A stretch of 64,000 bases of DNA from Gilliamella sp. Lep-s35. Lineage in GTDB: Bacteria > Pseudomonadota > Gammaproteobacteria > Enterobacterales > Orbaceae. The stretch lies in assembly GCF_009795845.1 (NCBI RefSeq), contig NZ_WTEX01000002.1, forward strand, positions 1 through 64,000, read 5' to 3'. The notes under the pieces were generated by a model. The model was not told the origin of the DNA. It saw nothing but the letters and a program-made list of their open reading frames with translations, and ran no database searches. Below, one piece after another: positions 1,161 through 50,280 of the stretch (the stretch's first letter is position 1; each line of letters starts with the position of its first letter). Position numbers and translations under genes: made by a program.

Positions 1161-1375
1161 ATTTTTCTCCTAAATAATTTTAAAGTTAAAATATAATTGA
1201 TTCTCATTCTAAACGAATTATTTTGAAAAAATATGAGTAATTTCACAAAATTATAAAAAAATAATTATTTCTATAGTTGTGTACTTATTATGTAATATTT
1301 GCACAATTATCCGCTTTTCAGGTTATTTTTGTAAAAAATATTCAGGATTCTATGCCGTTTGGTTATCAAAAAGCT

Positions 1376-18564: not shown

Positions 18565-18705
18565 ATTAAATCCCCTTATTAAACTAAGTTAAAATTGGAG
18601 TATATTTCGATAAACGACTATATGCATAAACAAAAAGTAGTACATAAAAATATACTGAAACACATAGTTACCTGAAAGTTTTTTACAAAAAACTATCTAA
18701 TATCT

Positions 18706-26130: not shown

Positions 26131-27147
<1,017 letters not shown>

Positions 27148-27177
27148 GAATAATATTTATTCAACACAAGTAATTAC

Positions 27178-27206
27178 TGCTCTTTCTAAATTGGAAGGAG
27201 CATTTT
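27178..27206 (+). terminator. terminator of hemB
   Basis: A 9-bp stem with one G-U pair (27178-27186 with 27194-27202) and a 7-base loop followed by TTTTAGTT, 30 bp after the hemB stop. The rest of the 27207-27444 gap holds no gene. Confidence 0.65.
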
Positions 27207-27365
27207 AGTTACCGCTCTAACATATCATGCATATAAAAATTGTATTATAGCTCATATTATTTAGCCGTATGTATCCTTTTTGTTTTTGTATCGACAATAC
27301 AAAATTAATACTTAAAAATAAGTTAGCATTTATAAGAGGTTAGTGATTTTACTTTACATAAAATG

Positions 27366-27407
27366 TAAAAAAGTTTCAGGAATGCTATATGTTTATGTAA
27401 AAAAATG
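27366..27407 (-). repeat. short block shared with IS481 debris at 41.3 and 50.2 kb
   Basis: About 36 bases around GTTTCAGGAATGC and GTTTATGTAAAAAAAT match 41335-41375 closely and 50231-50265 loosely. Read on the minus strand, all three give a similar peptide (FLHKH.AFLKLF or FIHKRSALLNLF), so it may be a transposase coding scrap. It lies about 40 bp upstream of the zinc-ribbon gene and could have supplied promoter sequence. Confidence 0.5.
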
Positions 27408-27444
27408 ATAATATTTAATCAGATAAGTAATAAGGAAATAAAAA

Positions 27445-28215
27445 ATGATTGATGAGCTGATACCAAATGAATTACATGATGAATTTAAAGCTTTTCGTCA
27501 TGAACTACAAAAAATAATATTGCAACATGCAGAATCTTGCCCTTTTTGCAAAAAAATAGAATTTTATATCATTCGTTCAAAACCAACTAAAACATATCAT
27601 TGCAAAAACTGCCATAAATATTTTACCGCTTCAACTAATACGCCATTCAATCGCTTAATACCATTTAATTGGTTGGAAACAATATTTACTAGCCGTATAA
27701 AAAATATTAGCTATACCAATATTGCTAGAAATCTTGAAATTTCATTCGAAAAAGTAATGCGCCGAGAACGTGCGATTATCAATTATCTTCAAACTTATTA
27801 CCCATTATTACATAAGTGGTATACACAACAAAAACAAGCCACATTAATTCCAATCTTAGCAGAACAATATAAAACGATAAAAGCAAAAGTCACAACTTTA
27901 CTAAATGAACAAAACCCAACCTGTATACATTGTGATTCTAACGAAACCGCCAAAATTGGAACTCGTACTTGCTATCGCTGTAAACGCTGTAGAAATAGTT
28001 TTAATATTGTAGGCAATACTAGCTTAAATCGTATTCCTAAACCTGAATTATGGTTACAATTTATCGATCTGCTTGTTTTGGATAAAAATAATTCACAAAT
28101 AGCAACAATACTTAGTTTACACAGTGATACTGTACATAAATGGCGTTCAATTTGGTGCAACATGATGAGATATTGGCATTGTGAAGCGCTGGCCACTTGG
28201 TGTGAACATAAATAA
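27445..28215 (+). CDS. tandem zinc-ribbon/helix-turn-helix protein (DUF746-like, function unknown)
   Basis: This 256-aa protein is built from two copies of one module. Module 1 has zinc-ribbon cysteines 32, 35, 53 and 56 followed by STNTPFNR and a helical region with SYTNIARNLEIS (about 89-100). Module 2 has cysteines 160, 163, 179 and 182, then GNTSLNR and NSQIATILSLHSDTV (about 216-230). In each, CxxC..CxxC is followed by a helix-turn-helix-like segment. This layout recalls the DNA-binding front half of IS1/IS1595-type transposases and the DUF746 domain found in transposon proteins. There is no DDE catalytic domain. A good AAGGA site precedes the ATG. It may be a domesticated regulator; no function can be assigned. 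Confidence 0.8.
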   Translation: MIDELIPNELHDEFKAFRHELQKIILQHAESCPFCKKIEFYIIRSKPTKTYHCKNCHKYFTASTNTPFNRLIPFNWLETIFTSRIKNISYTNIARNLEISFEKVMRRERAIINYLQTYYPLLHKWYTQQKQATLIPILAEQYKTIKAKVTTLLNEQNPTCIHCDSNETAKIGTRTCYRCKRCRNSFNIVGNTSLNRIPKPELWLQFIDLLVLDKNNSQIATILSLHSDTVHKWRSIWCNMMRYWHCEALATWCEHK

Positions 28216-28278
28216 TTACTCAATTTTACGTTTTATTATAAATATTTTTAAACAATAGGATAAGTGGGAATCAGTTTT

Positions 28279-29091
28279 ATGAAAAAGAATATTTTATCCA
28301 TATGTGTCATTAGCAGTGTATTATTAATTACTGGTTGTGACGATAAGAAAATACCTGATAAAAAAATATCAGAACAATCATTTGCTCAATTACCAACAGC
28401 AGTTATTAATAGTTATCTTTTTCATACTGAACCAGAGCTATTACCAAATAATAAATTAATTAAACAACAAAAAATAATGGGAAGTGGGTCAAATAAAATC
28501 ATCAACTACAATATACAAGGCTATGTTGCTAATTATGATTTAGATGGTCTTTATGGCGAAGTGAATTATGATTCGGCTAAGTATATTTACGGTAATAATC
28601 GAGAGAAATATAATATTACTTTTGATACAAAAAAAAATATCCTTACAATGCAAGATAGTGACGGTGATATTGTCGCTAATTCTGAGTTTGATGAGCAAGG
28701 ACATTTAGTTGAAACAACTTTAACTCATTTTGCTGGGAATAATGTTATTTTTAACAACCAGATTATATATGAAAATAACCGTGTAGAACTTGTCTCATAT
28801 AATGCCTATGTTCCAGTTGATGATAAAACAAAGTTTCCAATTTTAGCTCAACAAAAAGAGATCATTTATAATACAAATAACCAAGTAGAAAAGACCATTA
28901 CCAAAACATATAAGTTAACCTCAAATGGTGAGATCATTATTAATAACCAAAATGAACAAGAAGTTGAATTAACTGAAACCTGTACTTACGACAACTACAA
29001 TGAAAATCAAGATTGGACTAAAGCCATTTGTGTCAAAACAGGGGTTGAGTCAGGAACAGTTGAGCTAACTCGTACTATTGAGTATCAATAA
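28279..29091 (+). CDS. predicted lipoprotein, possibly YnfC-like
   Basis: The ATG at 28279 gives a clean lipoprotein signal peptide: MKKNILSIC, a hydrophobic core, then the lipobox LITGC with Cys at about residue 20, followed by Asp-Asp, which would favour inner-membrane retention by the Lol +2 rule. A GTG at 28264 would add five residues. The mature part (about 250 aa) is beta-rich with many Asn/Thr/Tyr and phrases such as FDEQGHLVETTLTHF. The C-terminal CTYDNYNENQDWTKAICV and TRTIEYQ resemble the end of E. coli YnfC (UPF0257), so a distant relationship is possible. Function unknown. It follows the zinc-ribbon gene after about 60 bp and may be co-transcribed. Confidence 0.78.
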   Translation: MKKNILSICVISSVLLITGCDDKKIPDKKISEQSFAQLPTAVINSYLFHTEPELLPNNKLIKQQKIMGSGSNKIINYNIQGYVANYDLDGLYGEVNYDSAKYIYGNNREKYNITFDTKKNILTMQDSDGDIVANSEFDEQGHLVETTLTHFAGNNVIFNNQIIYENNRVELVSYNAYVPVDDKTKFPILAQQKEIIYNTNNQVEKTITKTYKLTSNGEIIINNQNEQEVELTETCTYDNYNENQDWTKAICVKTGVESGTVELTRTIEYQ

Positions 29092-41204: not shown

Positions 41205-41644
41205 TTACACTTCATGATTAAATTAATTCGCTAAAAACGCATAAGGTGTTTTACCAAAAGTTGCTTTATGCAGTTTATCTAAATAAACATTTATCTAATA
41301 TCTAACAAACAGCAAAGACTGCGTTATTGTTGTTAAAAAGTTTCAGGAAAGCACCGTGTTTATGTAAAAAAATCAAAAAAATCAAATATTATCTAAATTG
41401 CTGTTTTAATTTATCTTCAATGGATTTTTTTACTTTAACCAACGTTTAATTCTATAACTGATGGTTTTATCACATTTGTTCTGACTACTTAAAGGACAAA
41501 AGCTTCAATCGGGGTTTCTTTAAGCATGTTATAAATGGTAGGAAGACTGACCATAAAACGTTTTGCCAAATCAGTGACCGTTATTTTTTCTTTATGATAT
41601 AAGCGCCCTATCGCTTGTTTGTGATAGGGTGTTAGTTTTGTTTT
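41205..41644 (-). pseudogene. IS481-family transposase, decayed
   Basis: The minus strand holds, in order, pieces of one transposase. First is a helix-turn-helix start (41644-41489, about 51 codons: TKLTPYHKQAIGRLYHKEK, then ITVTDLAKRFMVSLPTIYNM, ending FVL-stop). Next, in another frame, comes VKKSIEDKLKQQF near 41425. Then comes HKHGAFLKLFNNN near 41350. Last is the C-terminal KLHKATFGKTPYAFLAN near 41275. Between them are many stops and frameshifts. The order fits the HTH plus integrase-core plan of IS481-type transposases. This explains most of the 41033-41767 gap; the remaining bases to xerD hold nothing I recognise. Confidence 0.68.
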
Positions 41645-49950: not shown

Positions 49951-50280
49951 GGCTGACTGATCCTCTAAAAACGTATAAAGCGTTTTCCTTGAAATCATTT
50001 TGTGCAGTTTAACGGTATTATAAAAATTAATAAAACATTTAAGTTTTTGTTGTCTTTTTTATCACTAAATATTTGTTGATTATGCCACATTTCAATTTAA
50101 AGTTCATATTACGTTTTCGGTTTTCCATTTTCCATTTGTTTGTGAGCAGGTGATTTTTGTCGATTTTTGATTGATACGCTGGTTATCACACAGTTTATCT
50201 AAATAAATCAAAACAGTAGAGTTTTTGTTAAAAAGGTTCAGAAGTGCACTACGTTTATGTATAAAGACAATAAAAATCAG
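49951..50280 (-). pseudogene. IS481-family transposase, C-terminal half, decayed
   Basis: Read on the minus strand in broken frames: FIHKRSALLNLFNKN, LDKLCDNQRINQKSTKI, QTNGKWKTENVI, then FINFYNTVKLHKMISRKTLY and TFLEDQSA. This matches the order NGINQKFTK..RPQTNGKAERVI..FVNFYNTVKPHK..GKTP of IS481-type transposases. The open frame ends at 49951, exactly where the IS3 left end begins, so IS3 has cut or captured the IS481 end. The remaining 50281-50394 shows no gene. Confidence 0.72.

Follow-up and report, generated by a model that had tools for sequence, protein, structure and literature searches.

The DNA analysed here, a window of 64,000 nt, comes from a bee-gut Gilliamella genome (Orbaceae; G000 in our set) and holds a gene, which we call gene X, between two genes that we take from their sequences to be hemB and nudC. 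The open reading frame of gene X begins with ATG, and nearly the whole of the encoded protein consists of two copies of a single module, a zinc ribbon followed by a helix-turn-helix (HTH). The frame stops after the second HTH. A terminator-like hairpin behind hemB suggests that X is probably transcribed separately. These features, and the other features of the window discussed below, are collected in Table 1.

Table 1 Features of the window around gene X and copies of the dispersed motif.
Feature	Position	Strand	Evidence or remark
Dispersed copy of the paralog-type (P-type) motif	1330..1360	+	Motif match
Dispersed motif copy	18657..18687	-	Before a short-chain dehydrogenase gene
Terminator-like hairpin after hemB	27178..27202	+	1 found against 0.5 expected from shuffles
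Conserved upstream block, bipartite motif plus extended -10-like TGATAATAT (27406-27414)	27364..27416	+	23/23 orthologs
Gene X, tandem zinc-ribbon/HTH protein	27445..28215	+	256 aa
Zinc ribbon 1 (Cys 32, 35, 53, 56)	27538..27612	+	Invariant in 24/24 aligned homologs
HTH 1, model helices at residues 75-118	27667..27798	+	Fold match weak, best Z 7.1 to a sigma factor
Zinc ribbon 2 (Cys 160, 163, 179, 182)	27922..27990	+	Invariant in 24/24 aligned homologs
HTH 2, model helices at residues 200-243	28042..28173	+	HTH_23, E 0.012
Lipoprotein-like gene	28264..29091	+	Neighbour of X in 19/24 genomes
Dispersed motif copy	41331..41362	+	Sequence shared with longer repeats
Dispersed motif copy, 3 mismatches	50226..50257	+	~280 nt before an mraZ-like ORF

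An earlier note on this DNA had proposed that X is made of two zinc-ribbon/HTH modules that arose by internal duplication, and both points were borne out, the first by the reading frame and its eight invariant ribbon cysteines. The sequences NTPFNR (residues 65-70) and NTSLNR (191-196) do follow ribbons 1 and 2, respectively, as that note had read them. A local alignment of the two halves scored 73, compared with a maximum of 57 among 1000 shuffles, and comparison of their profiles gave 97.5% with an E-value of 2.3e-11 over 122 columns. Structure prediction, a check proposed in that note, is in agreement: in an AlphaFold2 model built from 8 sequences (mean pLDDT 74.4, pTM 0.50), both halves run in the same order through a helix, a three-strand ribbon and the HTH helices, and the modules are connected by a long helix. 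The families found by a Pfam scan at E<=10 were zinc-ribbon and HTH families, with weak extra matches to eIF-5_eIF-2B (E 0.16) and Ima1_N (E 0.83); the HTH_23 match is stronger in the G011 ortholog (E 2.4e-7). The same scan showed neither a DDE domain nor any other catalytic domain of a transposase in X, consistent with the lack of a catalytic core noted before. The best match to a solved structure in a search by sequence was a ribosomal zinc ribbon at only E 0.078, and Foldseek with the X model returned nothing at E<=0.001. Rescoring of Foldseek's matches gave a best Z of 7.1, with HTH chains of sigma factors and LuxR-type proteins ranking near the top. These searches reveal no function, and the lack of a fold match rules nothing out.

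Several comparisons point to the N-termini of IS1595-type transposases, the kinship that had been suspected from the sequence. Zn_ribbon_IS1595 is the top Pfam match of X (E 2.2e-5; 24.8 bits, just below the cut-off of 25.4), the NCBIfam model IS1_IS1595_Zn also matches below its threshold (E 1e-4), and the second module aligns at 29-30% identity with the N-termini encoded by a 12-copy gene of G036, one scanned copy of which (L041) carries DDE_Tnp_IS1595 (E 1e-16). Beyond the Orbaceae, too, the matches of the second module are to IS1595-type N-termini. Like IS1595/ISXO2-type transposases, X starts with a zinc ribbon followed by an HTH; unlike them, it has no DDE domain, is single-copy, lacks flanking inverted repeats and has two modules. 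From this similarity we infer that X may descend from the N-terminus of an IS1595-type transposase which lost its DDE domain and whose zinc-ribbon/HTH module was duplicated in tandem.

The likeness to DUF746 proteins, also proposed earlier, holds for the layout but not for the family model. The Pfam model of DUF746 (PF05344) gave no match to X at E<=10, yet the profile of X aligned at 94.7% over 224 columns, spanning both modules, with that of the one DUF746 protein compared, P0002 from a Burkholderia pyrrocinia plasmid (PF05344, E 4.7e-54). P0002 shares with X the tandem zinc-ribbon/HTH modules, and a catalytic domain was not found in it either; it differs from X in a further C-terminal CxxC pair and in its gene, whose start overlaps the final base of a ShlB/FhaC-type gene. 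At L110 (6440-7489), a DUF746 gene ends a set of hemagglutinin, SMI1/KNR4 and ShlB/FhaC genes that looks like contact-dependent inhibition. Fusions of a zinc-ribbon/HTH region with MucR, found on Buttiauxella and Enterobacter plasmids, carry a single N-terminal region related to X; unlike X, their second half is a ROS/MUCR domain and their gene overlaps the end of tssG. Such ROS/MUCR fusion genes (L097 5980-6774 and L111 4989-5942) overlap the tssG end in plasmid type VI secretion clusters. Literature searches found no paper on DUF746, on domesticated IS1595 zinc ribbons or the IS1595/ISXO2 helix-turn-helix, on zinc-ribbon transcriptional regulators of Gilliamella, or on interspersed or intergenic repeat elements of this genus.

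X is single-copy in G000, and an intact ortholog, with an identity of 52% or more, is present in 24 of the 35 Gilliamella genomes (G000 included). The gene is broken in G028, and the other ten genomes have none; among these ten, G004 has a distant homolog only, and the incomplete G015 and G031 are missing their hemB match too. The locus is conserved, spread and synteny being two checks that the earlier note had suggested. nudC flanks X on one side in 24/24 genomes, with the lipoprotein-like gene intervening in 19, and hemB lies on the other side in 21; of the remaining three loci, that of G017 ends at a contig end, and those of G018 and G011 have different neighbours on the hemB side. When placed on a hemB tree of 34 genomes (G011, G015, G017, G018 and G031 are absent from it), the absences of X fall into one six-genome clade and G008, and the break in G028 is recent; G004 sits on a long branch and its placement is unsure. 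In G006, G026 and G030, the interval from hemB to the lipoprotein gene shows weak traces of X that fall within residues 186-213 (E 0.001 to 0.04), and the other X-less genomes gave chance-level matches (E 0.2 or more) or nothing. X is under purifying selection, with a median dN/dS of 0.16 over the 47 usable of 253 pairs.

Other origins and roles were considered and rejected. That X is an open reading frame of a transposon, which the earlier note had named as grounds for discarding its reading, is not what we found: the gene has one copy and a fixed synteny, and no inverted repeats of at least 14 nt occur around it (27140-28280). Frequent disruption in relatives, the other such ground, was not seen either, with a single broken copy and a few absences. 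An obligate pairing with the lipoprotein-like gene was rejected, each of the two having been lost or having decayed without the other. The lipoprotein-like gene stays beside hemB without X in four relatives, and a weak B_lectin hit is its only Pfam match. Phages and viral contigs gave no match to X, which speaks against a phage or viral origin; a PHROGs search returned one match without known function (E 2.3e-5), followed by weaker ones. For a role in anti-phage defence, no PADLOC match was obtained at E<=1.

Beyond what the earlier note had described, X is preceded by a conserved block, and part of this block recurs as a dispersed motif. The block, 82-26 nt 5' of the start codon, can be aligned across the whole set of 23 orthologs examined, which omits L002 (near-identical), L025 (broken) and L026 (distant). 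About 55 nt are conserved, with a mean pairwise identity of 79%, compared with 33% in the more distal part of the spacer (22 sequences) and 41% at the four-fold degenerate sites of these genes; the block is most divergent in G023 and G018, and the remaining spacer aligns poorly. It ends in an extended -10-like element, read by eye, a -10 that a promoter scan did not list. We propose that this block is the promoter and autoregulatory operator of X, and consider autoregulation likely from its position and conservation.

The motif of this block occurs 53 times in the G000 genome (up to 3 mismatches), and the reversed pattern does not occur at all. A second pattern, which favours TTTCAGG, gave 86 matches in G000 and from 0 to 184 across 44 Orbaceae genomes, with its reversed control matching once in all 44 together. 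In copies of ~43 nt the consensus reads TTTTGTnAAAAAGTTTCAGGAA, 7-8 variable nt and GTTTnAGTATAAAA. The two half-sites have GTTTnAG in common, in the same orientation and 17-18 nt apart, and such direct half-sites would fit a protein whose two modules are arranged head to tail; in the copy before X, the second half-site reads GTTTATG. Fifty of the 53 G000 sites were analysed in detail (3 were omitted). Only three of these 50 lie inside an ORF of at least 80 aa. In 33 of 48 cases the first ORF downstream of the motif shares its strand (p 0.013), seven sites, that of X included, stand at most 100 nt before a same-strand ORF of at least 80 aa, and one has an inverted motif copy within 450 nt. About half of the copies are core-only (~43 nt), and the rest have longer common flanks that look IS-like by eye, the division into 25 core-only and 25 longer copies also having been made by eye. 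The copy at 18657..18687 is in the same place in 6 of 7 relatives compared and is absent there in G023; the ORF that follows the copy at 50226..50257 is presumably mraZ. Tandem arrays in G012 and G018 (L192-L195) consist of units of ~150-200 nt that start at the motif, and one G012 array has inverted partial motif copies, as judged by eye. No known RNA element was identified, with no Rfam match at gathering scores for six motif-holding loci, and none of five motif sequences folded as RNA better than its own shuffles. Viral contigs contained no exact match to the motif.

The family profile of X was matched in 37 of the 44 Orbaceae genomes. A paralog family, P, has lost zinc ribbon 1 and kept the second ribbon, and its genes are preceded by a related block: at six of nine P loci, which are related sequences and not independent tests, the match reached a nominal p<0.02 against shuffles, and at three it did not, using a motif matrix of 23 strings in which that of L021 was offset from the true site. 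Among 10 other homologs tested for a P/X-like block, L049 (p 0.009) also fell below 0.02. A third subfamily, with one gene each in G004, G011 and G198 (two genera), has a different shared block, recognised by eye. The pattern derived from these gene-linked copies found one copy in G004, two in G011 and one in G198, with no genome-wide amplification and zero copies in 11 other genomes. The extra G011 site, with 3 mismatches, lies ~410 nt before an opposite-strand ShlB/FhaC-type gene and also ~200 nt before an unrelated same-strand gene. In other genera, homologs have four CxxC at different positions. A conserved block specific to each subfamily would be expected from autoregulation by proteins of changing specificity, although it is not proof of it.

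The surroundings of P genes were also recorded. A PAAR-motif protein (Pfam E 3.2e-15) adjoins P in L044, where the genes around P are presumably treC and rtcB. Near P in L044, L046, L042 and L043 are copies of genes for a family of small membrane proteins, possibly orphan immunity genes. The P loci of L089 (G375) and L045 (G015), from two genera, are near-identical by eye, which suggests recent transfer or assembly mixing. P-type motif copies in G375 recur at several-kb spacing, and those of L250-L252 lie ~300 nt from opposite-strand genes that are VgrG-like, a Phage_GPD match having been tested for L250 only.

Genomes with and without X differ in the number of dispersed copies. With the second pattern, 22 genomes with intact X had a median of 81 matches (range 1-184), and eight without intact X, including G028 with its broken gene and G004 with its distant homolog only, had a median of 1 (range 0-12). 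The Mann-Whitney p of 0.0003 is uncorrected for relatedness, and the test omits the incomplete G005, G015, G019, G025 and G031. The losses of X amount to about three events, of which the six-genome clade and G028 fit the contrast and G008 goes the opposite way, so that the contrast is only weakly independent. Variants of the site before X are in part shared with the dispersed copies of the same genome. In G024, four of the eight other listed matches have the same AAAAT variant as its X site, a post hoc observation in which the four are those keeping TTTCAGG; none of the 52 other listed matches in G000 has this variant. The GTTTAAG of the G014 X site is common to four of nine other listed matches, again post hoc, and that of the G012 X site to one of 89, among matches to a pattern that favours TTTCAGG.

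Some genomes contradict a tight link between X and the motif. G013 and G029, both with intact X, have 4 and 4 matches compared with 3 and 8 for the reversed control, no excess that would indicate a diverged dispersed motif. G008, which has neither X nor P, has 16 matches, 13 of them with TTTCAG, and none for the control, and P-type copies are present in three genomes that yielded no P gene (G000, G023 and G028). On balance we hold autoregulation to be likely, and X may or may not act genome-wide.

Our preferred reading, to which we give an even chance, is that X is an autoregulating, catalysis-free regulator derived from a transposase, which may act at dispersed sites too. X would be a vertically inherited, single-copy regulator whose head-to-tail modules probably grip a bipartite site, the direct half-sites TTTTGTnAAAAAGTTTCAGGAA and GTTTnAGTATAAAA with 7-8 variable bases between them. 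With this site just before its own gene, X most likely controls its own expression, and it may also bind the dispersed motif, which in many Gilliamella genomes numbers from tens to nearly two hundred copies, most of those examined being intergenic. The view of X as a domesticated DNA-binding protein, already voiced in the earlier note, is thus supported by the analysis, with DNA binding as its presumed activity.

A clearly less probable reading keeps X as a domesticated regulator, with the block as the site of another global DNA-binding factor and X as one member of the set it controls. The copies in G008 without X or P, the two X-bearing genomes without a dispersed population and the motif sites near unrelated genes all fit such a factor. 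However, in two paralogous subfamilies of one protein family the genes have the motif ahead of their start codons (six of the nine P loci nominally), and just the seven of 50 G000 sites mentioned above, that of X included, stand close before a same-strand ORF.

It is rather doubtful, and slightly more so than the action of another factor, that the motif belongs to a mobile repeat of REP or MITE type whose movement depends on some unrelated enzyme, such as a RAYT or an IS, and that a copy inserted ahead of an ancestor of X and P became their promoter. Such mobility would account for the 47 of 50 sites outside ORFs of at least 80 aa, the longer repeated flanks of about half of the sites, the tandem arrays in relatives and the copies that fill narrow spacers, for example one between genes that look to us like rbfA and truB. 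Yet we came across no insertion matched by a clean empty site, and G013, in which we saw no dispersed population, retains the X site.

We also consider it possible, though unlikely, that X and the motif form a partnership like that of RAYT and REPIN without catalysis. RAYTs are described as single-copy, vertically inherited, transposase-derived genes, with dispersed repeats more numerous where the gene is present (PMC8049555). X is likewise a single-copy gene kept at one locus and flanked by a copy of a dispersed repeat (23/23 orthologs examined). The motif may also be more abundant where X is present, with medians of 81 versus 1 but about three independent losses and one contrary contrast. 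Unlike REPINs, the motif copies are not inverted pairs (1 of 50 G000 sites), and the Y1 (HuH) transposase domain of RAYT was absent from the Pfam scan of X at E<=10. The partnership would consist of a vertically inherited two-grip protein, a cognate site preceding its gene and as many as almost two hundred copies per genome, mostly intergenic, whose sequence changes along with the protein, making X a genome-wide binding factor, either a regulator or a chromosome organiser. Least of all do we favour X as a decaying transposase leftover without present function, a reading already disfavoured and very improbable: the broken gene in G028 and the absence from the six-genome clade and G008 would fit it, but the low dN/dS, the eight invariant cysteines and the intact gene in 24 of 35 genomes stand against it.

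Taken as an autoregulating, transposase-derived regulator, X is probably a variant of the DUF746-like layout for which a specific binding site can be predicted. Regulators have repeatedly arisen from transposase-derived DNA-binding domains, and to our knowledge few bacterial examples come with a predicted recognition site. X offers a layout for which our literature searches found no study, together with a site prediction that is testable in vitro. It could also help to approach related proteins whose role is unknown, two of them encoded at plasmid loci of contact-dependent competition. If the dispersed copies are targets of X, they would represent a new kind of protein-repeat partnership in this genus of symbionts.
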